64,000 nucleotides of DNA. Origin: Hygrophila difformis (Eukaryota; Streptophyta; Magnoliopsida; Lamiales; Acanthaceae). The notes beneath the pieces were generated by a model. That model was not told the origin of the DNA and searched no databases. It saw only the letters and a program-made list of their open reading frames with translations. The translations under genes and the position numbers were made by a program. The stretch is taken from assembly GCA_030278955.1 (NCBI GenBank), contig JAOANR010000009.1:34449504-34513503 (forward strand). Reading direction: 5' to 3'. This document shows, piece by piece, positions 4,095-64,000 of the stretch (its first letter is position 1; every line of letters starts with the position of its first letter).

Positions 4095-6856
4095 TGTAAC
4101 ACCCCGGATTTGATAACCCAGGCCGGGATGTCACCGCCGCATTTCCTAGCAAGACACGGCTTCCCGAGCTCGCTAAGGAAACGCAAGGCTTGCGGGTATG
4201 GAAAAGATTTAAAACATTTCAAGGTTTAGTCCGGAAATTTATAATACTTAGTACGATAGTAGAAATTATCACGTGCGGAAAATAAATGAAGTAAGTGCAG
4301 CGGAAAGTAAAATCACGGCCAACATGGCCAAATCCTCGGGTTTAACAGACCCGGTAAAAACAGTACGATGCAGAAATTTAAAATGTCCATTATGATTTCC
4401 CCCAAGTGCATATGCAATGCATCACTCGACGTACTCTGAAAAAAAGAAATGACAACGGTTGTCAGTATAAAAATATACTGAGTAAGTTAATCCCTAACTA
4501 CAAATAAAAGGGGTTACAAGTGTTTAAACTAAAGATTTCGCTTACCGTACGGGAATTTAAAAATACATGATTTATTTGCAGCGGAAAATCACGATTAAAG
4601 AACTTAATTTAAAAAAAAGCGAAATTTAAAGCATAAATTAAGATGCGTAAATTTTAAATGCATAATTAAAGACAGGATAAATACGATTTAAGCATAATGA
4701 AACACTCACACGAGTCTTTTACTTTTCATCCCGTAAACTAAGAAGAGGACACCATACCGGGAGATCACTAACGAGGCAATCTCAACATAGGACCACTAAC
4801 GAGGCAGTCCAAACAATGGGAGACCACTAACGAGGCAGTCTCAAAGATAGTAGGACCACTAACGAGGCGATCCACAAAGATAGTAGGACCACTAACGAGG
4901 CGATCCACAAATACAGCGCGCGAGATCACTAACGAGGCAATCTCAGATAGTAAGGAGACCACTAACGAGGCAGTCTCAAAGATAATGATAGTATGAAGAT
5001 CGGCTCAGCCTAGTGAACGGGATTTTTCGAAAGTTCGTATTTCAAAGTTATCAAATGATTGATATCGCGTTTTCATGGTTCGAGTTTTCTCAAGTTCGAA
5101 AAATCCTATTCGAGGCAGTTTACGCCTTTCTTAATTTAAAATTCGTCCTTTCTCCAAAAATTCTGAAATTTTTACAGTAATTCAAAAACACACACACGAA
5201 CAACTTTCATGTTTTAAGTTTTGGGAAATAAGGTTCCGAAGTGAGTTGAAATTTGAGTTTATTGCAAAGAATAATTTATGTCTTAAAACTGTTTTCGTCA
5301 TAGGTTCGTGCAACGCCGATTAAAAATTCATTTCAAAACCAATCGATGTGAAATTTTTACAGTAACTACACGACACATTAAGGAACAACTTTCATGTTTA
5401 AAGTTTTTGGAAATAATGAATTCTTGGTACTCAAAAATCGAGTGCAACTCACTGCATACTCATGGCCCTTAAAACGAATTCAAAACAGTTCTAAAAACTT
5501 GGCCGTTTGACATATCAAATGAACACCAAAATTCGTGAAATTTTGTAGGCATAATCTAGACACAATTATCTACAACTTTTGTTTAGAAATGCAAAGTTAA
5601 ATCATTTGAAAAATGGGTGAAAAACATGCATCAAGTTGAATGAAGGAATCTGTCACAGAATTAAATTGTTCGGTTCGATACAGAAAGTTCATGGCAAAAA
5701 TTGGGATAGCAAAACTTAATGTCAATGGCTGAAATTTGGCCACAAGATAGATAAAGGTATTAGGAACAACTTTTATGTTGAAAGGTTTTCGATTTGAATT
5801 CCCGGAGGTCGAGTTTTTGGCGAGTCATTAAAATTGGACGAAAATAGGGTTTTTGAAAACCGATTTTTGGTTACAAGCCTATATCTCGAGATTTAAACAA
5901 CAAACAACCACGAAAATTTGTGAGTAAGGTTTTAACTTACTTAGGATGATGATAGGGTCGCTGGATTGGGTTTCCGGACGTCCTAGGGTCACGACGAACG
6001 GCCAACTTCTCCGATCGCTTTTTGTTCGTTTTCCGACGGAGAATCGTAGCAAGGAAATAGTGTTAGAATTCGAGTTTCTGAGACTTATGGACGAATTGAA
6101 ACTTTGTACAATAGCTTACCAAGAGTCTAGAGGGCAGGGCTTGGTTCCTTTCGCCTTGCCGTCGCCGGAATTCTTGCCGGAAAGTGAGTTCGGAGAGGTT
6201 TCGACTTGGAGAGGAGTTTTGGAGGTGTTTAGGGTTAGGTTTTCTGAGAGTGAGGGGGAGGGGCGCCCCAAATCTGATCTTATGCCCTTCCCCATTGTTG
6301 TGATCGACTTGCCATTGATGGAGGTCGAATTTTTGGCAAGAAAATCGCCATGGAAGGAAAGTTTACACCTCCTGCACCTCTGGCGCGCTGGTGGCGCGCA
6401 CATAGGCCTTTGTGCGCGCGGAGCACGCGCGACCTTCCCTGGGGGCGCGACGCCCTTGGCCGCGCGGTGGCCGCGCGGCGGCGCGCGGGCAGCGCGGGCC
6501 GGCCGGACTGGCCGGTTCGGCGGTCCGCGTGTTCCGTCGGGTCTTCCCTCGCTTTCCCCTATCGGTTTTCTACGTGTTAGCTCGATTCCCTGGGTCGTCT
6601 TCGTTGCGGAATCTTCTCCTTAATCTTGTTACGAGTCCGGCTTATCGCTCGCAACATTTCCGGGTCCTACTTAGCCTAGTCTAAATTGGTTCCAACATCT
6701 CCTATCGTCCTTGTGATCTAATTCGTGATGTATTTTGTGATTTATTTCGTGACTGAACTTAGAAATTAGTTCTAAGCTGCCTACGTACCCTGTGAAGGGA
6801 TCAAGTCATGACGTAGTTCAAAACAATTTGAATTTGTTTTTTCCTCGGGTGTTACA
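4095..6856 (-). repeat. 5' LTR of the Tekay-like element (family A)
   Basis: In its own orientation it starts TGTAACACCCGAGG and ends GGGGTGTTACA; length 2762 bp. Visible inside: a GC-rich block (about 6370-6560), a conserved GT-AG pair that could bound a leader intron (about 6119 to 4436), diverged copies of a module with ACATGAAAGTTGT and CTGTAAAATTTC, and a hairpin array. The long plus-strand frame over 5946-6623 is antisense to the LTR and has no family resemblance. The same LTR family flanks the element at 34966-44370. Confidence 0.92.
4761..4977 (-). repeat. Array of seven covarying hairpins in LTR (loop GCCTCGTTAGT)
   Basis: In LTR sense each unit has the constant core GCCTCGTTAGT between complementary arms. 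Arms alternate among GAGACT/GGTCTC, GAGATT/GATCTC, GGACT/GGTCC and GGATC/GGTCC, so paired bases change together. Short A-T-rich spacers separate the units. The role is unknown. Confidence 0.85.
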
Positions 6857-25583: not shown

Positions 25584-28276
25584 TGTAACACCCCGGTTTT
25601 TGATAACCCAGGCCGGGATGTCACCGCCACACCTCCCTAGCAAGACACGGCTTCTCCAGCTTACTAAAGAGATGCAAGGCTATGGTTTTTCAGAATTTAA
25701 AGCATCCAAACAGCCTATTATAATATAATTTAAAAATAATAATATCAAAGTTGCAGCGGAATGTATTAATTACATATGTATAATGCAGCGGAATTTAAAA
25801 TTGGGCCAACACGGCCAAAATACGGGTTAAACATGCCCGTTCATGCAAATTCTAGTCTAACGCAAAATTTAAAAATAATGCATTTCCCCAAAATTCCCAT
25901 GTATGCATATGATGATGCATATTCTTCAATTCTGAAAGAAAAAGGGGAAAAACATGGTTTGGTCAGCAAAAACTTGCTGAGTAAGTTAACACATACATGA
26001 TAATGGGGTTTCAAAGCCTTTAATTAATTTTAAGGAAAACATATGCATAACACCCCATAATTTAATTTAATTCATCTAATAATAATTTAATTGCATAATT
26101 TAAGGGGTTCCATAAGATCATAATTCAAAAAACATGATAAAATAATCGCAAGACATAATTTAAAGGCGTAATTTGAACAAGGAAAATATCCAAGTATTTC
26201 GAGATTTCATTCTTCATCTTTTATTCAATATGATCTAGTATAATTTGTTCTTGGGGAATCGAACCCGCAAGAATATAAATGCATCCTAGGGAATCGAATC
26301 CGTAGGAATCAACACACGTCCTGGGGAATCGAACCCGCAGGAATTGACACTCATCATGGGGAATTGAACCCGCAGGAATCGACACACATCCTGGGGAATC
26401 GAACCCGCAGGAAAACATACACCCTGGGGAATCGAACCCGCAAGGTTCGACACGGACATCCTGGGGAATCGAACCCGCAGGAAAATAGACGCCTTGGGGA
26501 ATCGAACCCGCAAGGTAAGAACAAGTTTCGCAAATTTCACAAGTTCCTCAAAATATAACTTTTCACTAGTCGTTGTTTACTCCATAATTATTTAAAAATT
26601 TATTTTAAGTCCGAAAATTCCGAAATAATACCAGTGACTCGAAAACACAGAGACGAACAAGTTTTGTGTTTTAACGTTTTCGATCCGAGTTAAGGAAACA
26701 AGTCAAAAATGTGGATTTCCATCAGGTTATTAATCTGTCCGAATTTTTACATCAGTTTCATAATTTCGAGATCTACTATAGCAAACTAATTCCAAATTTG
26801 ATGAAAATTTACAGGAAGATACTAAAGACAATTATCTACAACTTTCATTTAGAACAGACAGCCTAATTCTCGTCGGATCAGTGGTTAATCTTTGGGTCAA
26901 GCTCGGAACAAATTTCTGTCAGCTTTCATGAATTCGGTAAGAACGCAGATCGGATCGGCTCGGGTTCGGAGGTCCAATCTCGACGAAAAATTCTGAAACT
27001 TTGCAGGGATGTTCTAATCTTATAGATCTACGATTCATATGTTTAACACTAACTCTAAATCGGTCTTGATCTAATGTCAAAAACGTCTACAAGATCGGAC
27101 TAAAGTTCGGTCAAGATTTCAAGATCTAAATTTAGAGCAGTTCAGTTTGGGGTCGGTTTCAGATAACAAAAATCAATGAAAAATTATGAATTTTTTACAG
27201 GAGATAGATCTTTGTCTTAGGAACGTTTCTCTTGTTTTAGGTTTTCCCGTTTGAATAGATTTAAGGGTTCGGAAGAATCGTGCAAAAATGCTGCGCCGTG
27301 GGTCTTATTCGTTTACAGATTTTAGGGTTCTTTAATTAGATCTCAACGTTTGGTTGTGTTTTAATCACCCAAAACCATAGTAAGTAGTAACATACAGATT
27401 ATGGATGTTCCGGCTCGTCGATTCGAAGGCGTGGCTTCCAGTCCACCGTTTATCTCCTTGATTCCGTCGGGTTCTTCGCTCTCGATCCAGATCGGGGTTT
27501 AGAATAGGAAAAAGGATCGGGTTAGGATTCGTTTTTGAATCAAGAATGGTACAGAAGGGATCAGATCTTACCACTATGATAGAAGCCTTCAGATTTTTGT
27601 CCAAGGCAGTCCCTTCTCTTGGTTTCGTGCCTCCACCGACTCCGGGATTAGGGTTTGATGTGTAGAGATTTTTCGTAGGGTTTTCAAAGTGTTCCGGGCT
27701 GATTAGAATGGTTATTTATAGATGTAAGGGACCTAGGGGACGTCCAAAGTCAGCCCTAGGGTGTCTTGAACCGAAAGGAAACCAACCGAAGTCGGAAAAT
27801 TCGGATTCGGGCGAGTAAATCGCGGACCGTCTCGTCTGTCGCCAACGGCGCGCACTTGGCACGCTCTCCCCCTTCTCACCGCGCGGAGACCGCGCCACCC
27901 TGGCCTGGACTTCGGTCTGGGCCGGGTCGTGCGATCTGTCGGGCCTTTTCTTCTCTCTTTCGGACTTCTATCCCTCTATATTCTCGGACTCTGATTTCCG
28001 GGTTATTTTCGGGCTCCAATTTCCTATCCAAATTTTACTCGGGTCTGAATTTAATATTGGTCTCGAATCCTCGAGTCCATTGGTGTCGGGTTCCCGTGTA
28101 CAATTTATTTAATTAATTTGTCTTCGGTTCCCCGGGTTCTCGGAACTCTGATTCCTTTTTAATTTAAATTCCATTTCTCATTTCTTATGATTCTTTATTT
28201 ATTTATTATGTTTTCTTTATTATTTATTTATTTAATTATTTATTTATTTTGTGTTGTAAAATTCTCGGGTATTACA
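25584..28276 (-). repeat. Solo LTR (family B) with 5-bp target duplication ATAAA
   Basis: 2693 bp from TGTAACACCCCGG to CTCGGGTATTACA on the plus strand, with no primer site or internal region at either side. ATAAA is present at 25579-25583 and 28277-28281. Such solo LTRs form when the two LTRs of one element recombine. A TATA-like box (sense TATAAATAAC) is at 27711-27720, and the hairpin array at 26248-26515 has tRNA-like loops. Confidence 0.93.
26248..26515 (-). repeat. Eight-unit hairpin array with tRNA B-box-like loops
   Basis: Plus strand core GGGGAATCGAACCCG, sense CGGGTTCGATTCCCC. Sense loops contain GGTTCGATTCC in six of eight units, an exact match to the RNA polymerase III B-box consensus and to the T-arm of tRNAs. 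Arms vary in pairs: TTCTTG/CAAGAA, TCCTA/TAGGA, TCCTG/CAGGA, CCTTG/CAAGG. Spacing is about 28-37 bp. No A box or cloverleaf is seen, so these are not tRNA genes. Confidence 0.85.
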
Positions 28277-34965: not shown

Positions 34966-37702
34966 TGTAACACCCGAGAAAAAAAACAAATTCAAATTGT
35001 TTCGAACTACGTCATGACTTGATCCCTTAACAGGGTACGTAGGCAGCTTGGAACTAATTTCTAAGTTCAGTCACAAAATAAATCATAAAATAAAATCATA
35101 AAATAAATCACAAAATAAATCACAAGATCGATCGCAAGGACGATAGGAGGGGTTGGAACCAATTTAGACTAGACTAATTAGGGCGCGGAAATGTTACGAG
35201 CGATAAGCCGAACCCGTAACAAGTTTAAGGTAAAGATTCCGAACCGGAGGCGACCCGAGGAGTCGAGCTAACACGTAGAGGGTAGAAAACCGATAGAGGA
35301 AAGCAAGGAAAGACCCGACGGAACGCGCGAACCGCCGAACCGGCCGGTCCGGCCGGCCCGCGCTCGCCGCGTGCCACCGCGCAGAAGGCGGAGTCGCGAC
35401 TCCAGTCCTGGCCAAGCGTGCTCCGCGCAGGCAAAAGCGTAGGTGCGCGTCACCAGCGCGCCAGAGGTGCTGAAGGTGTAAACTTTCCTTCCATGGCGAT
35501 TTTCTTGCCAAAAACAACACCCCTAACGATGGCAACCGAATCACAGCCTTAGGGAAGGCTTAAGAACACCATAGGGGCGTCCCAAACCCTAGGTTTTCAG
35601 AAACCACTCCCTAAACACTCTCAATTTTCTCTCCAAGTTCAAAATCCCTCCGAATCCACTTTCCGGCGAGCATTCCGGCGACGACGAGGCGAAAGGAACC
35701 AAGCCCTGCCTTCTAGACTCTTGGTAAGCTATGGTATAATATTTTAGTTCGTCCATACCACTTAGAAACTCGAAATCTAACCCTTTTCCTTTACTACGAT
35801 TTCACGTCGGAAAACGAACAAAAAGCGATCGGAGAAGTTGGCCGTTCGTCGCGACCCTAGGACGTCCGGAAACCCATTCCAGCGACCCAAATCTCTAACT
35901 AAGTTAAGACCTTACTCAAACATTTTTGTGGTTTATTGTTGTTTAAAACTCGAGATCTATACCCGTAACAAAAATCGATTTTCAAAAACCCTATTTTCGT
36001 CCAATTTCAAAAACTCGCCTAAAACTCCACCTTCGGGAATTCAAACCGACGTAAACTATCTTGTGTCTAAATTTCAGCCATTGACATTAAGATTTGCTAT
36101 CCCAAATTTCGACGTAAACTTTCTGTGACAAACCGAACGTTTGAAACTGTTGACAGATTTCATTACTCGACTTGATGCATGTTTTTCACCCATTTTTAAA
36201 ATGATTCAACTTTGCATTTCTAATCAAAAGTTGTAGATAAATGTGTCTAGATTATGCATATAAAATTTCATGGATTTTGGAGTTCATTTGGTACGTCAAA
36301 TTGGTCGAATTTCAGAACTATTTTAAAACCCCTTTGGAGTCCGCGCATGAACAGTGTGTTGTGGTCGATTTTTAAGCATCTATAATTCATTATTACCAAA
36401 TTCTTAAAACATGAAAGTTGTTCCTTAATGTGTTGTGCATCTCCTGTAAAAATTTCGGATCAATTGGCTTTGAAATGAATTTTTAATCGGCGTCGCACGA
36501 ACCTGTGACGAAATTAGTTTTTGAGACAGAAATTCCCTTTTGTAAAGAACTCAAATTTTGACTCACTTCGAAACCTTATTTCCAAAAACTTAAAACATGA
36601 AAGTTGTTCGTGTGTGTTTTTGAGCTACTGTGTAAATTTCAGAATTTTTGGTGTAAAAATGAATTTTTAATAAAGAAAGGCGTAAACTGCGTCAAATAGG
36701 ATTTTTCGAACTTGAGAAAACTCGAACTATGAAACGCGATATCGAATATTTTGATCACTTGAAATACGAACTTTCGAAAAATCTCGTGCACTAGGCTGAG
36801 CCGATCTTCATGATAATCATTATCTTTGAGACTGCCTCGTTAGTGGTCTCCTTACTATCTGAGATTGCCTCTTTAGTGATCTCGCGCGCTGTGTTTTGGA
36901 TCGCCTCGTTAGTGGTCCTACTATCTTTTGAGACTGCCTCGTTAGTGGTCTCCCATTGTTGTGGACTGCCTCGTTAGTGGTCCTATGTTGAGATTGCCTC
37001 GTTAGTGATCTCCCGGTATGGTGTCCTCTTATTAGTTTGCGGGATAAATTATAAAAGACTTGTGTGAGTGTTAATTACGCTTAAATCTTATTTACCATGT
37101 TTTTAAATTACGCATTTAAATTACGTCATTAAATTATGCTTTTAAATTCCACTTTCAAATTAAGCCATTTAAATTATGCATTTTCGTCTTGGATAAATTG
37201 ATCATGTTTTCCACTCCGGATAAAATATGGATTTTTAAATTAATGCATGAAAGGTGAACTCTTTGGATTTCAACACATGTAACCCCTTAAATTGTTAGTT
37301 AGGGATTAACTTACTCGGTATATTTTTATACTGATAAACCGTTGTCATTTTTCTTTTACAGAGCATGTCGAGTGGCGCATGCATATGCACTTGGGGGAAA
37401 CCATTATGGACATTTTAAATTCTGCATCGTACTGTTTTTACCGGGTCTGTTAAACCCGAGGATTTGGCCATGTTGGCCGTGATTTACTTTCCGCTGCATT
37501 TACTCTATTTTTGCGCATGATGATTATTACTATCGTATTTTGAATTAAGTATCATAAATTTCCGGACTAAATCTTGAATTGTTTTAAATCTTTTACGTAC
37601 CCACAAGCCTTGCATCTCCTTAGTGAGCTCGGGAAGCCGTGTCTTGCTAGGGAGATGTGGCGGTAACATCCCGGCCTGGGTTATCAAATCCGGGGTGTTA
37701 CA
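34966..37702 (+). repeat. 5' LTR (family A), 2737 bp
   Basis: TGTAACACCCGAG to GGGGTGTTACA. It includes the GC-rich block (35330-35460), a possible leader intron from GT 35724 to AG 37361, repeated CATGAAAGTTGTTC modules and six hairpins at 36838-37012. The minus-strand frames over 35194-35544 are antisense to the GC block and look non-coding. Confidence 0.93.
36838..37012 (+). repeat. Six covarying hairpins in the 5' LTR
   Basis: Order of arms: GAGACT/GGTCTC, GAGATT/GATCTC, GGATC/GGTCC, GAGACT/GGTCTC, GGACT/GGTCC, GAGATT/GATCTC, all around GCCTCGTTAGT (one unit has GCCTCTTTAGT). Confidence 0.87.
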
Positions 37703-37704
37703 AG

Positions 37705-37717
37705 TGGGTATCAGAGC
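37705..37717 (+). promoter_or_regulatory. Primer binding site, Met-tRNA type with one extra G
   Basis: TGGGTATCAGAGC, where related elements have TGGTATCAGAGC. It lies three bases after the LTR. Confidence 0.8.
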
Positions 37718-38066
37718 CCGGAAATTTTTTTTAAGCTACTACTATTATTCTAAACCATTATTTTTAAAACCCAAGTATTATTTTTAAATTATTTATTTTG
37801 ACTACTAGTATTATTTTAGCCCAAAAGCTTATTTTTACATAGCCCAAAATCTTAGCCAAAAGAAATATTAAATTTTTGGCCCACTATAGAGGCACAACCT
37901 TTATTCTTACCCATATAGTAGATTATTTTAAAATACACGGATAGATTACATTTTTAAATGGGGAAAAGGGGGACTTGCACTTGCATGTTGCATATAGATT
38001 TAAATTCGTGCATAACTAATCTTGCCTAACACATGTTCTAACTCTAACTTACCTTGTTGACCTTAG

Positions 38067-38465
38067 ATGGCCGAACCAAATGCAAACATGATCAACCTGA
38101 TGGTAAAACTGATGAATGCGTACCTCGAGTCCCAACAGCATATCAATTATTTCAAGACGCGGGTACGACAGTTGGAGGGTAACCTGGCCCATGTGGGTCA
38201 CCTTAGGGAAACAGACCATCACCACATAACCCAGCTGCAGGAGCAAGTCACACACCTCCAAGCCCAAGTGGCCCAGCTCCAAGACAAGGGAGATGACTTG
38301 GAGGAGCAGGTAGAGACCCTGGGCTGGGAACTGACTAACCTAGCCCAGGACGTGGATGGGGCGGTTCTTCAGAACCCGGGGCCTGCCCCCAATGTCGCCA
38401 TGCCCATCGACATGTCGAGCGATGAGGATGATCCCATCAAGGCCGAGCCAACCCACTCGTTTTAG
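38067..38465 (+). CDS. Coiled-coil protein replacing gag, 132 aa
   Basis: An intact frame, MAEPNANMINLMVKLMN to AEPTHSF. Residues about 20-110 are a long charged helix with heptad pattern (RQLEGNLAHVGHL, LQEQVTHLQAQVAQLQD, DLEEQVETL), ending in an acidic tail (SSDEDD). There is no Cys-His knuckle, signal peptide or membrane segment. It starts about 350 bp after the primer site, where gag starts in the autonomous relative. The homologue at 24477-24812 lies in the same position of a different LTR subfamily, so the ORF is kept by the elements. Its role is unknown; coiled-coil assembly or binding of partner gag are guesses. Confidence 0.8.
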   Translation: MAEPNANMINLMVKLMNAYLESQQHINYFKTRVRQLEGNLAHVGHLRETDHHHITQLQEQVTHLQAQVAQLQDKGDDLEEQVETLGWELTNLAQDVDGAVLQNPGPAPNVAMPIDMSSDEDDPIKAEPTHSF

Positions 38466-39214
38466 ATCTAGTGATCCAGCTACGCATTATTAGTATATTT
38501 TCCTTTCCGTACTATTAGCAGCACTTCTATCTCTATTTCAAACGCTTGTAACCCAAACGAAATTATTTCTTGAGTAATAGAAATACAAGCCTATTTAAAT
38601 TTATTCCATACATTTTATTTAATTCTTTAACTACCATGATCAAATAAGGGAACATCCAACCCTAAACCTAAAAAAAAAAAAAACGAACAATAAAAAAAAA
38701 ATCAATTTAAATATTTGTCTAGGGAACAACCCCCGACAACAAAAACCAGTACACTAAGCAACCTCTACTAACAAACCCCAACAAATTGATACCTATTAAC
38801 ACTATTCTTTACTCAATAAAAAAAAAATATCTCCTTACAAGTAGTTATTTATTTAACATATATATATAGCTATTTAAACTCTACCCCGTATACCTTATCA
38901 CATTAGTTTATCTGAGTTCCTTGAAACGGCTTAGTCCCAAAACGATGCAAGTATGGTTGGGCAACCCACCCACATATAGATGCGATAGGAAGGTAACAGT
39001 AGAACATCTCGAACCATAAATTGGGCAGAACAATTAGACTGTGTTTCTAAACAGCAATAAACAACTAACACATGTCAAACACATAACTAGGCAATAACAC
39101 AACGAAAATATAAACCATAAATCCCAGACAACAGAAACGTCCTCATAAGGAGGAAACTAAACAAAGTACGTCTGATGCAAAACCTAAACGAAAACGCGAA
39201 AACGAAAGGAGACA
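38466..39214 (+). other. Non-coding spacer between sense and antisense ORFs
   Basis: A-T-rich, with A runs at 38671-38700 and a TATATATA run near 38865. No coding frame. It could hold the 3' ends of the two convergent transcripts; TTGAGTAATAGAAATACAAG near 38570 is the only hint of a 3' end. Confidence 0.5.
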
Positions 39215-40496
39215 TCACTGATCGGGAGGCGGGGACTGCCGACGCATGTAGTCGTCCATCTGCCGCACATAGGCGTACATGTCGGACATGGTGGCCTGCT
39301 GCTGAGCCTGCCTCGTAGCGAACGAGTCCATACGGGTCTGGTAGAAGTCCAATCTAGCGTCTATGGCATCATAACGAGCCTGCCCAGCTGCAAACCCGGC
39401 ATCCATGCCGACCCTTATCTCCTGCATCATCTGCAGCATCTGAGCCATCTCCTGTCCCTGAGGTGCCACTGCAGGAGGTGGAACTACTGGAGGAGGGGGT
39501 GGCTGCTCCGAAGGTACAACATGGATCAAGCCGCCATCATCAGGCTGCGGGCGAAGTACAACACGGGGAGCCCCACGACGTAAGGCGCTACGCCGGGCAG
39601 CGTAAGTCGGGATACGATAACAACTGCCCGCTACTAGATCGTACGGATCTGTCTCCGGTGTCGTGCGAATCCCCTGTGTCGCGCACAAGCCACAGATGAG
39701 GTGAACATGGGTAATCACCCTACTCCCTCGTCCTCTCCGCATACCCTGCAAGTTGTCCTCGATACAAGCTCCCACATTCACCCTACCGTCTCGCGCGATA
39801 AAGCAAATGGTCTCGTAGACGTGATCTAGGACGATGTGGCTCCGGGTGATCGGCCGGATGCGCCCTAACCATAACTGAGCAAGCTCTCGCCAAGGGGAGT
39901 CCATCGTCGTCAAACGCAGCTCATGACCGTGCTCGAGCTGAGGAGGCACTATGGTGCATAAGGTATCCCACGCAGGAGCAAGAACACGTCCCTCAGGTTG
40001 TGGGCGAAATGCGCCATCGTCAGGCAAGCCAAAATAGACATTGATCGCCCGAGCACTGAAGTCGAGATAGCGACCACGAACCCATACCCGAGATAGGTAG
40101 TCACCCTCCCCGAGACCGCCAATGTTGGCGATAACCTCCAAGGCCAGATAACCGGAGGCAACGCCCTCGGGATGACGTGCAAGTCCGGTCCACTGCAAAT
40201 ACTCCAAGACTGCACTGACCCTGTCATCGCCCAGATGATGAGGATATATGCCTCTCTCAGGGACATAAGCCCTGTTTCGACGAAGCTCGTCGAAATAGAA
40301 GTCCTGGCAGCCCTCGTCCTAAACCGGAACCTGTCGTGCCGGTGAGGACGCACCTCGTCAGGGAGACCCCTGAGTTCGGGCCCCGCTGCTCCTCGTCCTC
40401 CTCTGGCTCACTCTCGTCGAAATCAGGCATCGCCGGAGCGGCATTGCTGGGGCCAGCCTCATCAGCAATTCGTCTCCTGGTCCTCGGAGGACACAT
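39215..40496 (-). pseudogene. Antisense ORF, putative plant transposon protein type
   Basis: Antisense to the element. The long open part is 330 codons from Met at 40207, and the frame is open back to 40318 (DFYFDELRRN, YPHHLGDDRV). Two frame changes near 40319 and 40375 separate this from the natural start MCPPRTRRR at 40496 with an acidic stretch (ESEPEEDEEQ). The core YLSRVWVRGRYLDFSARAIN and the later HVHLICGLCATQGI fit the putative plant transposon protein domain often found as accessory ORFs in plant Gypsy elements. The C-terminal third is a Pro-rich linker and then a Met/Gln-rich helix (MAQMLQMMQEIRVGMD). Function unknown; frame changes suggest it is inactive here. Confidence 0.75.
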
Positions 40497-41592: not shown

Positions 41593-41907
41593 CTAGCGTC
41601 CCCACCACAATTTGCTTGTATTCACGACGTATTCCACGTCTCCCAATTGAAGAAGTATGTGCACGATCTGACCCATGTACTCCATCCGGAAGAAGTCGAA
41701 TTTGAGGATGACTTGAGTTACGAGGAAGTTCCGGTGCGAATACTTGACACGAAGGAGAGAGTAACGAGGAACAAGACATTGAGGATGGTCAAGGTCCTTT
41801 GGTCCAACGACGAGACGGAGACGGCAACATGGGAGTTGGAGGCCGACATGAAACAACGTTATCCTACCCTCTTCCAAGATGAGCCGACCACAGTTATGGG
41901 GACATAA
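41593..41907 (+). pseudogene. Pol 3' remnant with chromodomain-type tail
   Basis: The frame reads HDVFHVSQLKKYVHD, then LSYEEVPVRILD and KVLWSNDETETATWELEAD, ending before the polypurine tract. This is the integrase C-terminus and chromodomain-like module of Tekay chromoviruses, which directs integration to chromatin marks. Only this last part of pol is present, in frame and with few changes, so it may be kept for cis-acting sequence rather than protein. The stop is at 41905-41907. Confidence 0.85.
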
Positions 41908-41917
41908 CTGTATTCTT

Positions 41918-41930
41918 AAGGGGGGGAGGA
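41918..41930 (+). promoter_or_regulatory. Polypurine tract
   Basis: AAGGGGGGGAGGA immediately before the 3' LTR start TGTAACACCC. Confidence 0.92.
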
Positions 41931-44370
41931 TGTAACACCCGAGAAAAAAAAACAAATTCAAATTGTTTCGAACTACGTCATGACTTGATCCCTTCACAGG
42001 GTACGTAGGCAGCTTGGAACTAATTTCTAAGTTCAGTCACAAAATAAATCATAAAATAAAATCATAAAATAAATCACAAAATAAATCACAAGATCGATCG
42101 CAAGGACGATAGGAGGGGTTGGAACCAATTTAGACTAGACTAATTAGGGCACGGAAATGTTACGAGCAATAAGCCGAACTCGTAACAAGTTTAAGGTAAA
42201 GATTCCGAACCGGAGGCGACCCGAGGAGTCGAGCTAACACGTAGAGGGTAGAAAACCGATAGAGGAAAGCAAGGAAAGACCCGACGGAACGCGCGAACCG
42301 CCGAACCGGCCGGTCCGGCCGGCCCACGCTCGCCGCGGGCCACCGCGCGGCCACCGCGCAGAAGGCGGAGTCGCGACTCCAGGCCTGGCCACGCGTGCTC
42401 CGCGCGGGCAAAAGCGTAGGTGCGCGTCACCAGCGCGCCAGAGGTGCTGAAGGTGTAAACTTTCCTTCCATGGCGATTTTCTTGCCAAAAACACCACCCC
42501 TAACGATGGCAACCAAATCCCAGCCTTAGGGAAGGCTTAAGAACACCATAGGGGCGTCCCAAACCCTAGGTTTTCAGAAACCACTCACTAAACACTCTCA
42601 ATTTTCTCTCCAAGTTCAAAATCCCTCCGGATCCGCTTTACGACGAGGCGAAAGGAACCAAGCCCTGCCTTCTAGACTCTTGGTAAGCTATGGTATAATG
42701 TTTTAGTCACTGTGTCCAAATTTATCTTGTGTCCCAAATTTCAGCCATTGACATTAAGATTTGCTATCCCAAATTCCGACGTAAACTTTCTGTGACAAAT
42801 CGAACGTTTGAAACTGTTGACAGATTTCATTACTCGACTTGTTGCATGCTTTTCACCCGTTTTTATAATGATTCAACTTTGCATTTCTAAACAAAAGTTG
42901 TAGATAAATGTGTCTAGATTATGCATATAAAATTTCATGGATTTTGGAGTTCATTTGGTACGTCAAATTGGTCGAATTTCAGAACTGTTTTAAAACCCCT
43001 TTGGAGTCCGCGCATGAACAGTGTGTTGTGGTCGATTTTTGAGCATCTAAAACTTCATTATTACCAAATTCTTAAAACATGAAAGTTGTTTCTTAATGTG
43101 TTGTGTATCTCCTGTAAAAATTTCGGATTAATTGGCTTTGAAATAAATTTTTAATCGGCGTCGCACGAACCTGTGACGAAATCCGTTTTTGAGACAGAAA
43201 TTCCCTTTTGTAAAGAACTCAAATTTTGACTCACTTCGAAACCTTATTTCCGAAAACTTAAAACATGAAAGTTGTTCGTGTGTGTGTTTTTGAGCTACTG
43301 TGTAAATTTCAGAATTTTTGGTGTAAAATGAATTTTTAATAAAGAAAGGCGTAAACTGCGTCAAATCGGATTTTTCGAACTTGAGGAAACTCGAACTATG
43401 AAACGCGATATCGAATATTTTGATCACTTGAAATATGAACTTTTGAAAAATCCCGTGCACTAGGCTGAGCCGATCTTCATGCTAATCATTATCTTTGAGA
43501 CTGCCTCGTTAGTGGTCTCCTTACTATCTGAGATTGCCTCGTTAGTGATCTCGCGCGCTGTGTTTTGCATCACCTCGTTAGTGGCTCTACTATCTTTTGA
43601 GACTTCCTCGTTAGTGGTCTCCCATTGTTGTGGACTGCCTCGTTAGTGGTCCTATGTTGAGATTGCCTCGTTAGTGATCTCCCGGTATGGTGTCCTCTTC
43701 TTAGTTTGCGGGATAAATTATAAAAGACTTGTGTGAGTGTTAATTACGCTTAAATCTTATTTACCATGTTTTTAAATTACGCATTTAAATTACGTCATTA
43801 AATTATGCTTTTAAATTCCGCTTTCAAATTAAGCCATTTAAATTATGCATTTTCGTCTTGGATAAATTGATCATGTTTTCCGCTGCGAATAAAATATGGA
43901 TTTTTAAATTAATGCATGAAAGGTGAAATCTTTGGATTTAAACACATGTAACCCCTTAAATTGTTAGTTAGGGATTAACTTACTTGGTATATTTTTATAC
44001 TGATAAACCGTTGTCATTTTTCTTTTACAGAGTATGTCGAGTGACGCATGCATATGCACTTGGGGGAAACCATTATGGACATTTTAAATTCTGCATCTTA
44101 CTGTTTTTACCGGGTCTGTTAAACCCGAGGATTTGGCCATGTTGGCCGTGATTTACTTTCCGCTGCATTTACTCTATTTTTGCACATGATGATTATTACT
44201 ATCGTATTTTGAATTAAGTATTATAAATTTCCGGACTAAATCTTCAATGTTTTAAATCTTTTACGTACCCACAAGCCTTGCATCTCCTTAGTGAGCTCGG
44301 GAAGCCGTGTCTTGTTAGGGAGATGTGGCGGTGACATCCCGGCCTGGGTTATCAAATCCGGGGTGTTACA
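41931..44370 (+). repeat. 3' LTR (family A), 2440 bp
   Basis: Same ends as the 5' LTR but shorter: the stretch matching about 35750-36055 is missing after GGTATAATGTTTTAGT (about 42700). Possible intron GT 42683 to AG 44030. Hairpins at 43497-43681. Confidence 0.93.
43497..43681 (+). repeat. Hairpin array, 3' LTR copy
   Basis: Six units in the same order as 36838-37012. The third (GCATCACCTCG...GGCTCT) has lost arm pairing and the fourth has a loop change (TTCCTCG). Confidence 0.83.
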
Positions 44371-48009: not shown

Positions 48010-49375
48010 CCACAATAAAATAATATGTATATGGTAATCAAAACAAGATTTAGCATATCTTTAGATATTGGCAAGATTTAGCATATCGTTAGATATTGGC
48101 AAGATTTAGCCTATCTTTAGTATATTGTTATAACCTTCAATGATAGCAAAATATTTGAAAATCAAATCTTGGATCCTAAGTCTCTAAATAAGCGCCCTTT
48201 ACTTCTTTTTAAATTTAATCTTTTTCATCTTCCTAATTTGCTATTCATATCAATTCTACATACACAAAAAAAAGAATTCTACGTACAAAAGAAAAAAAGA
48301 AAGCGAAGAAGAAAAAAAAATACATCTTCCTCCACCTTTAAAATTCAAAGAAAACCCTAGATCTAGATCTTGGGAGGCAAGATGTTGAGAAGGAGGACGT
48401 TTTCCAGGCGAGTTCAAGAGTTCCTGGGCATAGGAGGACTGTGGAAAGGAGAAAGAAGGATCTCGGGAGACAAACGGTGAACGCAGAGGCCGTTGTCATC
48501 CAAATCGACGAGCCAGAACGTCCATAGATTGGTAAGTTAATACTTACATGGTTTTGGGAGTAACTAAAACACGAAAGCTAAAAGATTGAATTGAATCTTG
48601 CGTAAATCTGTCATTGAATGTTTTCTACCGACGCAACAGTTTTGATGAATTTTTCCGAACCTTAAAACGACTTCAAACGGAAAAACTTAAAACACGAAAA
48701 ACGTTCCTAAGGCTTAGATCTATCTACTGTAAAATTTTCAGAATTTTTAGAGACGATTTGTTTTGTGAAAACCAACCGAAACCGAACTGCTTGAAACTAG
48801 ATCTTGAAATTCTTGACAGAACTTAGGTTCGATCTTGATCACATTTTTGACATAGGTTCCAGACCGATTTAGATCTTTGGCTGAACATGAAAGTTGTAGA
48901 TAAATGTCTTTTAGATGATCTCTGTAAAATTTCATTAAATTTGGATTTGACTTGCTATGTTAGATCTTGATAATCTTGAACTGCTGTATACGAATCTCGG
49001 ACAGATTTAGGTTATGACGAAAATTGATGATTTTGACCTATTTCGGTAACTCGGATTGAAAAAGTTAAAACACGAAAGTTGTTCATCTCGATGTTTCTGA
49101 GTCAGTGGTGAAATTTCAGAATTTTTGGAATTAAACTCGATATTTACTGAAATTTTGAGTAAACTGTGGTTGACCGAGTCAAATCTTGAAAAATCTTGTT
49201 GAAAAGGATTTTAAACGATATCGGAGCGGATAGCGTCCTGAAATAGTATATTTTGAGAAACTTACTAAATTTGAGCGATTGGCCTTTAAGGTTTAAATGA
49301 GTGGAAACTCCTTTGAAGTGAAATACATAAACAAACATTTTCGAAATCCCGTTATAGCTAGTTTGAGCTTTCTAC

Positions 49376-49587
49376 GTAGAGGGTGAGTGCTCCATCGGGT
49401 GCCCCTCTAGCTTTTCGCTTCGTGCCTTAACGGACGAGAGTGACCTATGTAGGGGGTGAGTGCTCCATCGGGTGCCCCTCTAGCTATTTGCTTCGTGCCT
49501 AAACGGACGAGAGTAATCTATGTAGGGGGTGAGTGCTCTGCAGGGTGCCCTCCTAGCTTTGCACATCGTGCCTGATTGGACGATGGT
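49376..49587 (+). repeat. Three-unit hairpin block (GAGTGCTC...GGTGCCC)
   Basis: About 80-bp units, each with two stems. The first is GTAGAGGGTGAGTGCTCC to GCCCCTCTA in unit 1, with TAGGGG/CCCTCTA in unit 2 (one G-T pair) and TAGGGG/CCCTCCTA in unit 3. The second stem is TCGT-GCC-N7-ACGA, extended to CATCGT/ACGATG in unit 3. Confidence 0.7.
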
Positions 49588-52905: not shown

Positions 52906-55237
52906 TAATTAAAATAATAATAATAGTAGTAGTAATAATAATAACCACAATAAAATAATATGTATATGGTAATCAAAACAAGATTTAGCATATCTTTAGA
53001 TATTGGCAAGATTTAGCATATCTTTAGATAGTGGCAAGATTTAGCCTATCTTTAGTATATTGTTATAACCTTCAATGATAGCAAAATATTTGAAAATCAA
53101 ATCTTGGATCCTAAGTCTCTAAATAAGCGCCCTTTACTTCCTTTTAAATTTAATCTTTTTCATCTTCCTAATTTGATATTCATATCAATTCTACATACAC
53201 AAAAAAAAAAGAATTCTACGTACAAAAGAAAAAAGAAAGCGAAGAAGAAAAAAAATACATCTTCCTCCACCTTTAAAATTCAAAGAAAACCCTAGATCTA
53301 GATCTTGGGAGGCAAGAAGTTGAGAAGGAGGACGTTTTCCAGGCGAGTTCAAGAGTTCCTGGGCATAGGAGGACTGTGGAAAGGAGAAAGAAGGATCTCG
53401 GGAGACAAACGGTGAACGCAGAGGCCGTTGTCATCCAAATCGACGAGCCGGAACGTCCATAGATCGGTAAGTTAATACTTACATAGTTTTGGGAGTAACT
53501 AAAACACGAAATCTAAAAGCTTGAATTGAATCTTGCGTAAATCTGTCATTGAATGTTTTCTACCGACGCAATAGTTTTGATGAATTTTTCCGAACCTTAA
53601 AACGACTTCAAACGGAAAAACTTAAAACACGAAAAACGTTCCTAAGGCTTAGATCTATCTACTATAAAATTTTCAGAATTTTTAGAGACGATTTGTTATG
53701 TGAAAACCAACCGAAACCGAACTGCTTGAAACTAGATCTTGAAATTCTTGACAGAACTTAGGTTCGATCTTGATCACATTTTTGACATATGTTCCAGACC
53801 GATTTAGATCTTTGGCCGAACATGAAAGTTGTAGATAAATGTCTTAAGATGATCTCTGTAAAATTTCATTAAATTTGGAGTTGACTTGCTATGTTAGATC
53901 TTGATAATCTTGAACTGCTGTATACGAATCTCGGACAGATTTTGGTTATGACGAAAATTGATGATTTTGACCTATTTCGGTAACTCGGATTGAAAAAGTT
54001 AAAACACGAAAGTTGTTCATCTCGATGTTTCTGAGTCAGTGGTGAAATTTCAGAATTGTTGGAATTAAACTCGATTTTTACTGAAATTTTGAGTAAACTG
54101 TGGTTGACCGAGTCAAATCTTGAAAAATCTTGTTGAAAAGGATTTTAAACGATATCGGAGCGGATAGCGTCCTGAAATAGTATATTTTGAGAAACTTACT
54201 AAATTTAAGCGATTGGCCTTTAAGGTTTAAATGAGTGGAAACTCCTTTGAAGTGAAATACATAAACAAACATTTTCGAAATCCCGTTATAGCTAGTTTGA
54301 GCTTTCTACGTAGAGGGTGAGTGCTCCATCGGGTGCCCCTCTAGCTTTTCGCTTCGTGCCTTAACGGACGAGAGTGACCTATGTAGGGGGTGAGTGCTCC
54401 ATCGGGTGCCCCTCTAGCTATTTGCTTCGTGCCTAAACGGACGAGAGTAATCTATGTAGGGGGTGAGTACTCTGCAGGGTGCCCTCCTAGCTTTGCACAT
54501 CGTGCCTGATTGGACGATGGTGTTGAACATGAGAAACTGTGCCAAAAAGGCGAGAGAAACTTGACTACAAATAAAAATCTTGATACTCGGCTAGGGATTA
54601 ACGGGAAAAATTTAAAAGACTTATACTTCCCTTCGCTTATTTAAATTATGCTTTTAAGTTATGTTATGCAATTATTTACCTTGCAAGCAATACTGTGATG
54701 TTATGAAATCCCTGTCTATTTAATTTTGCAATTAAATTGTTGTTAGATAATAAATTGAATTTTGGGGTATTGTGTACATGTTTTCTTAAGGTTTAAATAA
54801 CGGCTTTGAAACCCCATGATCCTGTATGTGTTAACTTACTCAGCACGTAGTGCTGACCAAAACCATTACTTTCTTTTTCATACAGAGTATGAAGAATATG
54901 CATCATCATATGCATGCATGGGATATTCGGGGAAATATTATCTTCTTTTATTATTCTAGCCTTATATATGAATTGCATGAACGGGCCTGTTTAACCCGTG
55001 ATTAGGCCATGTCGGCCCTATATTTAAATTCCGCTGCAATATATATGTAAATATTATTTTCCGCTGCAACTTTGATGTATTATTTTTAAATTATATATGA
55101 ATGGGTTGTTGGAATGTTTTAAATTCTGAAAAAACCATAGCCTTGCATCTCTTTAGTGAGCTCGGAGAAACCGTGTCTTGCTAGAGAGGTGTGGCGGTGA
55201 CATCCCGACCTGGGTGACCAAAAACCGGGGTGTTACA
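52553..55237 (+). repeat. 3' LTR (family B, 2685 bp)
   Basis: Matches 47628-50303 nearly throughout; differences are scattered substitutions and microsatellite length. Possible intron GT 53467 to AG 54885; hairpin block 54310-54521; microsatellite 52841-52944. CTTTC follows at 55238. Confidence 0.93.
54310..54521 (+). repeat. Three-unit hairpin block, 3' LTR copy
   Basis: Same three units as 49376-49587; one base differs in the last unit (GAGTACTC). Confidence 0.7.
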
Positions 55238-56639: not shown

Positions 56640-59056
56640 AAAATTCAAAATGGAATAAAAGAGGGAAAGGAAGCCCTAAGATATTCCATGGATTGACCCC
56701 AAAAGAAATGGAATTAAATTCAAGATCAAGAAAAATTTTAATTCCAAGAACCCGTGAAGTCGGAAGCAATTTAGTTAAATGAATTATTACACGGGAGCCA
56801 ATAGTGGACGAAGTCACACTCGACGGATTCAAGATTTTGAATACAAAATAATTATGAGTTCGAAATAAATTTAAAAATAGGAATTTATAACCCGAGAATG
56901 ACCCGAAAAATCGAGCCCAAGAGCGTGGGAGGATAGAAGTCCAAAAGAGAGGAGAAAAGGCCCGACGGATCACACGGCCCGGCCCAGACCGGGGTCGCGC
57001 GGTTTCCGCATGGAAATCCTTGAATCCCACGCCACGGGCGCGCCAAGGTGCTGAACAGCGGCAACAACGCGTTTCGACGATTTTCTTGCCATATTTTCGT
57101 GTCCCGACGATGGAAACTTAACTTAATTCGGGGGGTGGGGGGTGTGGGGGGAGCGGATTTTGATCGATATTAGATGATTCTAACACCCTAAATTCAGATT
57201 CTTACACCCTTTACAGCCCCAAAACCATCCACCCTCACTCTCAATACTCAAACCACTCTCAAACCCTAGTTCTTGGACATTCGAAGACCACCTGATGAAG
57301 GAGGCGATGATTTGGACGAGGCCAAGCAATTTTCAGACTTCGTGTGGTGGTAAGGATAGATTTCAATCTCAGATCATGGTTCCTAATCGAATTTAGAATC
57401 CTAACTTTTAGTTTTCGCTCTTGTATTCACAAATCGGGACCGAAGAGAAAGAGACGAGTAGATCGGATGTGTTCGCGGACTCCGGAGGCAATCCCGACGA
57501 AATCTAAGACCTTAGATCTTAGCTACTGTAAGTTGATTCTTCTCATAACCGTTTTGGTGCCCTAAAATCGAATGGAATGCAAGGTTTAGTCAACATACGA
57601 AAATATGTCCCAAAAACTCTTCCTACGCGCGTTTTCTGAAATCCAACTTTTAAGCCCTTCTACAATCTACAATCCAAACGGAGAAACTTAAATCTAAAAT
57701 CTTGTTCCTAATTATTTAAAGTATATCGTGTTAAATTTTCAGAAATTTTCGTCGATGTTTGGCCCGTCAAATCCGATCTGGTATTTTCTGAGTTATTCTT
57801 CAAAACCGAAAAGCTGACAGAATTTCGTGTCCGGCTTCTATGACGTTTTTCTAGTGGATCCCACCAAAAATATTTGACCTAAAAATGAAAGTTGTAGATA
57901 ACTGTCTCAAGAATGTATCTGTAAATTTTCGTAAGTTTTCGTTAACTTTGGACCTCCTAACGCGATTGGTTGTTCTGTGTTTTAAAGGAAAAATAGGAAC
58001 AGATTTTCTAATTGAACTTGTTGCGCGAATCTGATTTTATCCGGAGTATTTTTGGATAAAATGCCTCCAATAAAACTTATTCTTTTTTGTGTCATGTACG
58101 TGCCTGTAAATTTTCATAATTTTTGGAGTTCGTTTACTGGTTAAAATGTTTTAAAAACAATGCGCTGTTACCGGGAATCCGGACAGAGTATACTTTTCAA
58201 GAAGATCGTAAAATTTGACTTGTTTCCTCACATCATTTCGAGAAACTTAAAACATGAAAGTTGTTCGTTAGGGTATCATTGGTGTACTATGCGAATTTCA
58301 AGTCGTTCGCCTTAAGAATGAAATTTCAAAACCAAAAGGCGTAATCTGCGATGTGTGTGCTTATTAAACCTTGAGATTTATGGAAAACCTTCCTTGCGAC
58401 ACTTTCAACTATTTTGAAAACTTTGTGATTTATGATCGAGTTGGATACTGTAAAATATTGATTATGTGGCTTGTGGACATAAGAGTCCAAACGTATGGCC
58501 AGCGGACATAAGAGCCCTACTGAAATATCGATTATGAGGCTTGTGGACATAAGAGCCCAAGCGTAAGGCTAGTGGACATAAGAGCCCTAGCGAATGGTAA
58601 TTTGTAAGGCTAGTGGACATAGGGGCCCTAGCGAATTGTGATTTGTGAGACTTGTACATAAGTGCCCAAGTGGAATACGGTGATCTCGATCATATTGAAA
58701 CAACAGTAGAAGAATGAAATATTAGTTATGCGAGAACATATATCTTATCCCGTGATTTTTAAAACCCTTCGTATTTAATAAATTCTTTGTTAAATTTTTT
58801 AAATTTATATACTTAATATTCGTGTACGTCTCTTTACCTTTAGAATCATGCCTTTAAATCCTTATTATTAATGTTGTCAAAATACATTTTCATATTATAA
58901 AACGTGCATGAGTAAAAAAAATGTGAATTTTTATTACATATATTTTAAAACCCATTATTGTTATGTTAGGAATTAACTTACTCACTATTTTGTATACTGA
59001 TAAAACACGTTGTTTTATTTTTCTTTTACAGAGTACGGAGAAATGACATGAGCATG
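56640..59056 (+). repeat. LTR truncated at both ends (same subfamily as 61284-64000)
   Basis: Begins near AATTCCAAGAACCCGTG and runs through a GC-rich block (56980-57050), a possible intron GT 57350 to AG 59031, CATGAAAGTTGT modules and hairpins at 58468-58670. Similarity to the inverted copy stops at GACATGAGCATG (59056). Neither the TGTAATACC start nor the TGTTACA end is present. Confidence 0.8.
58468..58670 (+). repeat. Six-unit hairpin array (loop GGACATAAGAGCCC)
   Basis: Arms: GCTTG with a decayed partner, GGCCAG with a decayed partner, GCTTG/CAAGC, GCTAG/CTAGC twice, and ACTTG/CAAGT in the last unit, where both bases of one pair have changed relative to GCTTG/CAAGC. Confidence 0.82.
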
Positions 59057-61283: not shown

Positions 61284-64000
61284 TGTAACACCCCGGTTTT
61301 GGTAACCCAGGCCGGGATGCCACCGCCACACCTCCCAAGCAAGACACAACTTCATTCGAGCTCACTTGAGACAAGGCTAAAGGTATTTCAAAAATAATTT
61401 AAAAACAAGCCACGGAAGTCTAATTTAAAAATAATATAGTTGCATCCATACATAACAAAATAAAATGCAGCGGAAATTTAAATACGGCCGACATGGCCAG
61501 AACGCAGTGAGTAATTCGAGTCTTATAAAATGCAACATTCACAGTTATTAATTTAATTCCCGAGCCCCAATATGCGTGCATGCTCATGCCATTTCTCCAT
61601 ATTCTGTAAAAGAAAAATAAAACAACGGGTTTTATCAGTATATAAAATACTGAGTAAGTCAATCCCTAACATAACAATAATAGGTTTTAAAATGTAGTTA
61701 ATAAAAATTCACATTTTTGCTCACACACATATTATAATATAAGAGTATATTTTGACGACATTGATAATAAGGATTTAAATGCATGATTCTAAATGCAAAG
61801 AGGCGTACACAAATATTCAGTATAGAAACTTGAAAGCTTAGTTAAAAAGGAATTTATTAAATACGGAGAGTTCTAAAAACCATCGGACAAGATATCTATT
61901 CTCGCATAACGAATATTTCATTCTTTTACTATTATTTCAATACGATCGAGATCACCGTATTTCGCTAGGGCCCTTATGTCTACTAGCCTTATAGATTACC
62001 ATTCGCTAGGGCTCTTATGTCCTCTAGCCCAACGCTTGGGCTCTTATGTCCACAAGCCTCATATTCGATATTTCACTAGGGCTCTTATGTCCGCTAGCCA
62101 TACGCTTGGGCTCTTATGTCCACAAGCCACATAATTAATATTTCACCAGGGCTCTTATGTCCGCTAGCCATACGCTTGGGCTCTTATGTCCACAAGCCAC
62201 ATAATTAATAATTCATAGTATCTAACTCGATCATCAATCAAAAAGTTTTCAAAACAGTTGAAAGTGTCGTAAAAAGGGTTTCCCATAAATCTTAACATTT
62301 AATAAGCACACAAGTCACAAATTACGCCTTTTGGTTTAAAAAATTCATTCTTAAGGAGATCACTATGAAATTTACTCAGTATACCAATGACACCCTAACG
62401 AACAACTTTCGTGTTTTAAGTTTCTCGAAATTATGTAAGGAAGCAAGTCGAATTTTACAATTTTTTTCAAAAGTCAAAATCTGTCAAATTACCGGTAACA
62501 GCGTACTGTTTTAAAATCACATTTTCGACCTAGCAAATGAACTCCAAAATTCATGAAAATTTACAGGCATATACAAGACACAAAAATAAATAAGTTTTAT
62601 TAGAGGTATTTTATCCGAAAATATCCCGGATTAAATCAGATTCGTGCACTAAGTTTGAATAGGAAAATCTGTCAGAATTCTTCTTAAAAACGCAGACCGA
62701 TCAGATCGATTTTGAAGGCTCAAACATTAACAAAAAACTCACAAAATTTTAACCAAACATTCTTGAGGCAGTAATCTACACATTTCATTTTTACATCAAA
62801 GATTAGTTTGGACCGGAAGTAATAGAAAAATCCACATCAAGTTCGTTTAGGTATGCTGTCAGGTTTTTGAAAAAATATATAAAAACTCAGAATATGTCAG
62901 ACGCGATTTGGGGTATCAAAACTTGATGACAATGCGTGAAAATTTGACACAACCTAGATTAAGACGTTAGAAACAAATCTTCAATTCGGAGTTTTTCGTT
63001 TCGCATTCTCGAAATAGGAGTTTTAGACGGATTTCAGAAAATGCGCGAAAGAGTAGTTGCTGTCAGTTTTGCGAAAAGTCACAGAGCAACCAGATCGCAT
63101 TTGGGAAATCAAAATTTGATCAAAACTCGTGAAATTTTAAAAAAATATATTTTAAGGTCTTAGGAACAAGATTGAAGTTTTACAATTTCCCGTTTGAACA
63201 TCCGAAGGGGTCCGAATTACTAGATTTCAGAAATTGCACAAGGTGAGTTTTCTAATGTCAGATTTTAATGTGTTGCTCTAATCCTATGGTTTGCTCGAGT
63301 TCATGGCACCAAAATGGTTATATTAAGAATCAACTTACAGTAGCTAAGATCTAAAGTGTTAGATTTCGCCGGGATGGCCTCCGGAGTCCGCGAACACGTC
63401 CAATCTACTCGTTTCTTTCTCTTCGGCCCCGATTGTGAATACAAGAGCGAAAAACTAAAATTTAGGATTCTAAATCCGATTAGGAACCATAATTTAAGAT
63501 TGAAATCTATCCTTACCACCACACGAAGTCTGAAAATTGTTTGGCCTCGTCCAAATCGTCGCCTCCTTCGTCGGGTGGTCTTCGAATGTCCAAGAACTAG
63601 GGTTTGAGAGTGGTTTGAGTATTGAGAGGGAGGGTGGATGGTTTTGAGGCTATAAAGGGTGTAAGAATCTGAATTTAGGGTGTTAGAATCATCTAAATTT
63701 CGTCCATATCCCCCTTCCCTCATTATAGATCAAGTTTCCATAGTAGATGGTCGAATTATGGTAAGAAATCGCGTGATTCCACTCTTGTCCGCGTCTATCC
63801 ATTTAGCTGCTGTGTTGGCGCGGTGTTGGCGCGGTTTTTGCCAAATACCACGGGGCGGGCGCGCGCCCTGGTCTGGACCATGCGTCTGGACTGGGTCGTG
63901 CGATCCATCGGGCCTTTTCTCCTCTCTTTTGGGCTTCTATCTTCCTACGTTCTTGGGCTTGATTATTCGGGTCATTCTCGGATTGTAAATTCCTATTTTT
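61284..64000 (-). repeat. LTR (minus strand), runs out of the window
   Basis: Own-sense 3' end is CCGGGGTGTTACA at 61284. No primer site follows, so this is a 3' LTR or a solo LTR inserted in the transposon-protein ORF. It is an inverted counterpart of 56640-59056, sharing the intron boundaries, hairpins and GC block (63810-63880). The window ends before its TGTAATACC start. Confidence 0.85.
61964..62198 (-). repeat. Seven-unit hairpin array (loop GGACATAAGAGCCC)
   Basis: Own-sense arms alternate GCTTG/CAAGC and GCTAG/CTAGC, with single-side changes in CTAGT- and CTGGT-type units. Same loop as at 58468-58670 and 9691-9863. Confidence 0.83.

Follow-up and report, generated by a model that had tools for sequence, protein, structure and literature searches.

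Covarying hairpin arrays in the long terminal repeats of Hygrophila difformis retrotransposons: a candidate RNA element of the unspliced transcript

Results

The window (the whole 64,000-nt stretch of Hygrophila difformis DNA that was analyzed) contains three long terminal repeats (LTRs) of a retrotransposon family, here called family A. Two belong to the same element. The first is a 2.74-kb LTR on the forward strand (34966–37702) with the ends TGTAACACC...GGTGTTACA, and its partner lies at 41931–44370 on the same strand. Both have the TG...CA ends of Ty3/gypsy LTRs. The third LTR (4095–6857, reverse strand) adjoins a gag-pol frame (669–3707, reverse strand) with Pfam matches to RVT_1, RT_RNaseH, RVP_2 and Retrotrans_gag. 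A relative with the same LTR therefore carries the gag, protease, reverse transcriptase (RT) and RNase H expected of Ty3/gypsy elements. A CCHC motif was seen by eye in the A-type gag-pol, where it has no Pfam match, and a zinc knuckle is present in the gag of a family D element. In the internal region of the element at 34966–44370, the three frames scanned of the 12 listed gave no gag or RT. Elements of the chromovirus type also have a chromodomain at the end of integrase; a match to PF00385 (chromodomain) at 41593–41907 (E = 9e-4, 19.6 bits) falls under the curated cut-off of 25.1. Antisense to this element, a 367-aa frame at 39215–40318 (reverse strand) scores 42.4 bits against PF20167 (plant transposon protein; cut-off 45). 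The family A LTR is A+T-rich except for a G+C-rich block (0.70–0.82) at 35316–35465.

Motif search and folding placed an array of six hairpin units in the first LTR at 36828..37012 (forward strand, as are all its units). Unit 1 (36828..36850) reads GAGACTGC-CTCGTTA-GTGGTCTC, and unit 4 (36930..36952) has the same arms. Units 2 (36861..36883, with the loop CTCTTTA in this copy) and 6 (36990..37012) have the arms GAGATTGC and GTGATCTC. The arms are GGATCGC...GTGGTCC in unit 3 (36898..36918) and GGACTGC...GTGGTCC in unit 5 (36963..36983). The partner LTR holds six units at 43497..43681, the third of them decayed, and the LTR on the reverse strand holds seven at 4761..4977. An earlier note, made from the letters of this stretch, had reported these three arrays. 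All were recovered, and they exceed chance: a search of the window for TGCCTCGTTAGTGG with up to three mismatches gave 21 matches, 19 of them array units, against 2.8 expected, and none of 100 shuffles reached 21. The four stem forms that the note had listed (GAGACT/GGTCTC, GAGATT/GATCTC, GGACT/GGTCC and GGATC/GGTCC) were all found. Its constant loop also held up, with the exact core CCTCGTTAGTG present in 18 of the 19 window units and in 270 of 295 candidate units from the wider genome sample described below. The hairpin itself is real but longer than the note had it; the predicted RNA fold is an 8-bp stem, GAGACUGC/GUGGUCUC, around the 7-nt loop CUCGUUA, with a tandem U.G/G.U inside the stem. 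We looked at auxin-response (ARF) sites, presumably marked by GAGAC/GTCTC, and set them aside, since on inspection this motif occurs in only some unit forms. A possible resemblance of the 7-nt loop to an anticodon loop was also considered.

The array is abundant. Across the 915-Mb genome, the 12-base core GCCTCGTTAGTG has 27,021 exact matches and its reversed control has 10; the terminal unit with three flanking bases has 3,895 (control, 0). These counts indicate several thousand family A arrays. The loci collected for comparison contained 46 distinct arrays and the 295 candidate units, of which four with more than two core mismatches were dropped. The remaining 291 units comprise 33 distinct 23-mers, four of which account for 256 units. 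Because 30 of the sampled loci were chosen as those most similar to the window copy, young and similar copies are over-represented. Units have been gained and lost, and arrays contain five to eight each.

Alignment along the LTR places the array among its best conserved blocks. Against L071, the most distant lineage, 126 of 138 unit positions are identical (91%), compared with 37 of 49 in the spacers and 1414 of 2335 (61%) in the rest of the LTR. In 50-base steps, the best-kept blocks in this comparison are the array, the acceptor-like block described below and the LTR 3′ end. The contrast is small against L080 (units, 112/137, 82%; spacers, 32/44; rest, 1766/2354, 75%). For the lineages L078, L072 and W4, identity is 99% in the units, 96–98% in the spacers and 80–84% in the rest of the LTR. 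The array is also retained in the element at 34966–44370, in which the three scanned frames gave no gag or RT.

Stem pairing was analyzed in 32 of the 33 unit forms. Pairing across the 8-bp stem holds in 88.7% of cells, compared with 84.2% in shuffles, and none of 500 shuffles reached the observed value. Double-changed cells number 21, against 8.6 (sd 2.5) in shuffles, again with none of 500 reaching the observed count. When the partner arm was slid out of register, pairing fell to 33–54%. Strict covariation is seen at two of the eight stem pairs, from A-T to G-C and from C-G to T-A. Four of the other six vary on one side only, and two deviate only through unpaired cells. This refines the earlier note's claim that stems change on both sides, which in the strict sense holds for two pairs. 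Pairs with a double change are, however, no more numerous than in shuffles (2 versus 2.0), and there are fewer pair types (7 versus 9.1). The seven distinct arm pairs in five arrays have Watson-Crick pairs in 26 of 35 cells, whereas shuffling gives a mean of 19.2 (p = 0.0016); allowing G.U raises the counts to 28 and 25.9 (p = 0.037). A pattern that allows C/T and A/G at two pairs has 16,044 matches in the genome, and all 100 of the matches listed were matched (C-G or T-A). Because units inherit one of two forms, this is linkage and not 100 events. Thousands of copies likewise add few independent events, since they are similar and inherit the two double changes. Family A covariation alone is thus modest evidence, because only two stem pairs show it. 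Within the stem, T.G persists in 236 of the 291 units and G.T in 284, and these positions form wobble pairs only in sense RNA.

Similar arrays with other loops occur in related families. Families A, D, E and T share a layout in which GTAAG lies 840–1105 nt upstream of the array, and CTGAY, a pyrimidine tract and CAG lie 317–378 nt beyond it. At this place in the LTR, family T has eight hairpins (26249..26515, reverse strand) with the loop CGGGTTCGATTCCC, which we take to resemble the loop of the tRNA T arm. Its stems covary (CCTTG/CAAGG, TCCTG/CAGGA, TCCTA/TAGGA, TCTTG/CAAGA and CCTTG/CAGGG, with one more decayed): 38 of 40 cells are Watson-Crick (p = 0.001; p = 0.005 for distinct forms). Family E has two arrays, in LTR copies of opposite orientation. 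E2 (61964..62197, reverse strand) has the loop GGACATAAGAGCC and the stems GCTTG/CAAGC and GCTAG/CTAGC; E1 (58469..58671, forward strand) is partly decayed. Pairing gave p = 0.03 in E2, 0.065 in E1, where one unit is out of register, and 0.11 for distinct forms. The genome holds 2,789 exact matches to the family E unit pattern. Among the 100 listed, the variable stem pair, read by eye, was T-A in 69, A-T in 17, a T-T mismatch in 14 and A-A in none. Paired stem changes are therefore clear in T and weak in E. Inside the family A array of L080 (L080:2240-2460) there is a further loop type, CTGYC-AAA-GRCAG, with the stems CTGCC/GGCAG, CTGTC/GACAG and TTGCC/GGCAA around AAA (by eye). Family D has 73-bp repeats at the same LTR place (49371..49573 and, in the second LTR, 54305..54507; both forward strand). 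They give no folding signal (z about −0.6 sense, 0 antisense), and we do not accept them as a proven hairpin array.

A structured array also occurs in element B, whose LTR is unrelated to that of family A. Its 3.65-kb direct repeats (10501–14146 and 18988–22658) are 98% identical, and no ORF was recognized between them among those of at least 110 aa. The array (11030–11515 and 19518–20003; z about −10 to −11) is larger than that of family A. It consists of four two-level hairpins, whose inner stems surround CAC/CAT and whose outer stems covary, preceded by two other hairpins upstream (z −11.2). An alignment of eight sequences was made, six of them extra copies taken from the lowest-scoring of the 40 places listed. 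In it, double changes that preserve pairing occur at 3 of the 159 predicted pairs. The first is C-G/T-A, seen in three sequences; the second is T-A/G-C, seen in two, with one broken; the third belongs to a long-range helix that we do not trust. A matched insertion is present on both arms in four of the eight sequences, and one copy has it on one arm only. For family A taken by itself, the earlier view that the stem changes can be understood only through pairing goes too far; what stands is that pairing is kept in A and recurs in T, in B and, weakly, in E.

The same observations bear on the possibility that the arrays are simply tandem repeats in a fast-changing segment of the LTR, whose arms are matched by palindrome-driven repair or template switching with no selection on pairing. 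Such repair can render inverted repeats perfect, units do multiply and disappear (five to eight per array), and the tandem repeats found at the same place in family D are unrelated in sequence. Repair should, however, convert the kept T.G and G.T to Watson-Crick pairs. The alternative, raised in the earlier note, fits badly, because these in-stem T.G and G.T are retained and the loop hardly varies; nor does it explain the constant loop, the stronger conservation of units than of spacers and the rest of the LTR against L071, or the fixed place in the LTR. We consider it improbable.

Folding energies were compared on the two strands. The sense RNA of 36820–37020 folds at −57.8 kcal/mol (z −2.63), the antisense at −36.6 kcal/mol (z −0.53), and the corresponding single-stranded DNA has a z of −0.96. 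Across 11 arrays the sense z ranges from −1.09 to −3.13 and is lower than the antisense value in nine; the two exceptions are both among the three L071 arrays. The L080 insert has z values of −3.01 (sense) and −2.09 (antisense). The order is reversed in family T (−3.98 sense, −5.56 antisense) and in both family E arrays (E2, −1.09 and −1.72; E1, 0.0 and −1.88), and the element B array is strong on both strands (−9.97 and −8.11). Strand comparison is thus of use for family A alone: it is the antisense strand that gives the lower z in T, in E1 and E2 and in two of the three L071 arrays. The earlier note had left the choice between RNA and extruded DNA; in family A the balance tips to sense RNA. 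In 200-nt windows along the family A LTR, the array (z −2.1) is not the strongest, the LTR 3′ end reaching −3.3 and another window −2.2. Rfam 15 has no match in the window at the gathering score; two weak matches in the LTR are below it and off the array. A scan for bacterial promoters and terminators (four terminator-like sites versus 3.0 in shuffles) is meaningless here.

With a donor-like GTAAG upstream and an acceptor-like block of branch site, pyrimidine tract and CAG downstream, the array looks intronic. The predicted donor, CTTG|GTAAGC, is at 35724..35729, and the predicted pyrimidine tract and CAG are at 37345..37361 (all forward strand). Between the array and the tract, a hairpin at 37315..37334 (forward strand; arms TCGGTATA and TATACTGA) holds the branch-like CTGAT in its right arm. 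Its two arms differ in concert from family to family, reading TCGGTATA/TATACTGA in A, TCAGCAC/GTGCTGA in D, TCAGCAA/TTGCTGA in T and TCAGTAT/ATACTGA in E. TTG|GTAAG is kept in five of six aligned LTRs and shifted in one, amid diverging surroundings. In a larger set of 54 distinct arrays with enough flank, TG|GTAAG occurs 850–1300 nt upstream in 44, and branch, pyrimidine tract and YAG occur downstream in 46. Among the 10 arrays with no donor in that interval are the L071 arrays and the one in the partner LTR at 41931–44370; a wider scan found other, L071-type donors there. GTAAG is the sole one in the searched stretch of A (36-kb copy), D and T, one of two in the 4-kb A copy and one of three in E. 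G+C is higher before the donor-like site than after it, at 0.53 and 0.35 in family A. The spliced junction has no match in the genome under a pattern limited to A variants already seen, and with a pattern so limited this result is not decisive.

The array might then act in splicing control, with structures in the LTR intron keeping RNA unspliced, aided by a hairpin that hides the branch site. The hairpin that holds the branch-like CTGAY in one arm does change in pairs from family to family. Against this, splicing is itself a prediction, to which the junction search is neutral; in A, 349 nt separate the end of the array from the acceptor-like site, which is far for direct masking; and the constant loop suggests a sequence-specific reader. 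We judge this slightly less probable even than the origin by repair.

A stronger competitor sees each unit as a dyad-symmetric DNA site bound by a dimeric factor, and the array as an LTR enhancer in which paired arm changes mark sites for related dimers. Repeated short conserved promoter boxes that bind nuclear factors, the BII boxes, are known from the LTR of the plant element Tnt1, as an excerpt of one report describes (PMC3316501). The arm symmetry exists on both strands, and in T and E folding is at least as good on the antisense strand. A TATA-like block also lies at 37319–37330, about 300 nt downstream of the family A array. In D and T, however, a GC-type hairpin replaces this block. A TATA box directly after the array, TATAAAAG at 37049, was considered and rejected because it is not kept in other A lineages. 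A DNA-binding factor would have no reason to keep T opposite G inside a dyad, and it is the arms that differ between unit forms while the center is constant. The excerpt presents the Tnt1 boxes as sites for DNA-binding factors and makes no mention of paired arm changes. We regard DNA sites as unlikely, though less so than either repair or splicing control.

Discussion

The array is present in several thousand copies, is better conserved than most of its LTR and has matched stem changes that recur with other loops in related families. From this anatomy we infer transcription and splicing of the LTR, RNA as the active form, a reader and a function. Our preferred reading, to which we assign a probability of roughly one half or slightly less, is that the array is a multivalent cis-acting element in the sense RNA of the unspliced retrotransposon transcript, read most likely by the element's own Gag nucleocapsid. 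Each unit would form a short stem capped by a loop that hardly varies (CUCGUUA in family A). This loop would be the part that is read, the stem would present it, and five to eight copies would make a multivalent site. The near-constant loop, the kept stems and the multiple units suggest that a protein recognizes the loop in RNA. Being inside a predicted 1.6-kb LTR intron (35724–37361), the array would be carried by unspliced genomic RNA and absent from spliced RNA. Gag nucleocapsid, acting in packaging or export of the unspliced RNA, is the most likely reader, and a host RNA-binding protein a possible one. The link to Gag is our proposal.

Retroviral psi is the closest comparison. Its small RNA hairpins with conserved loops lie downstream of the splice donor in unspliced RNA, according to an excerpt on HIV-1 (PMC7599994), and the family A hairpins would lie likewise beyond a predicted donor. 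The predicted fold and the paired changes provide, as modeled, the conserved-loop hairpins with compensatory pairing of a psi-type signal. The family A array differs from psi in repeating a single hairpin many times, with covarying stems, and in its location within an LTR; its donor is a predicted one, and its part in packaging a proposal. Retroelement RNA export elements, structured cis elements that allow unspliced RNA to leave the nucleus (PMC12786077, in excerpt), are similar by description, in that the array would be a structured cis element of a proposed unspliced retroelement RNA. The Tnt1 BII boxes resemble the array as short conserved boxes in a plant LTR. Plant LTR elements are generally without introns, with Ogre and EVADE given as exceptions in the same excerpt (PMC12786077). 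Family A would share with these two an intron, here predicted, in the transcript of the element, but this intron would be inside the LTR and carry the array.

The earlier note knew of no described counterpart, and our literature search recognized none; subscription journals were mostly outside its scope, so this absence is weak evidence. Searches with the letters of the 11-base core returned only papers unrelated by title, as did those listed for a 10-mer of the element B stem. In IMG/VR, 60 stretches have a single 14-mer match each and no array.

Little is known of how plant LTR retrotransposons separate genomic RNA from messenger RNA. A repeated structured element at a fixed place in the LTR, with about 3,900 copies of one terminal unit, is a candidate packaging or export signal, and the LTR-internal intron, if real, would extend the short list of introns in plant LTR elements. 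A broader idea, which we think doubtful, is that related families carry private hairpin arrays at a fixed place in an LTR-internal intron, with loops serving as address labels read by their own Gag; packaging would then co-evolve with competing or non-autonomous relatives through fast-changing RNA labels. LTR families can be scanned computationally for constant-loop hairpin arrays with covarying stems. The window also contains, at 26994–30068, a direct duplication of about 1.1 kb whose copies are 82% identical and 2.24 kb apart.
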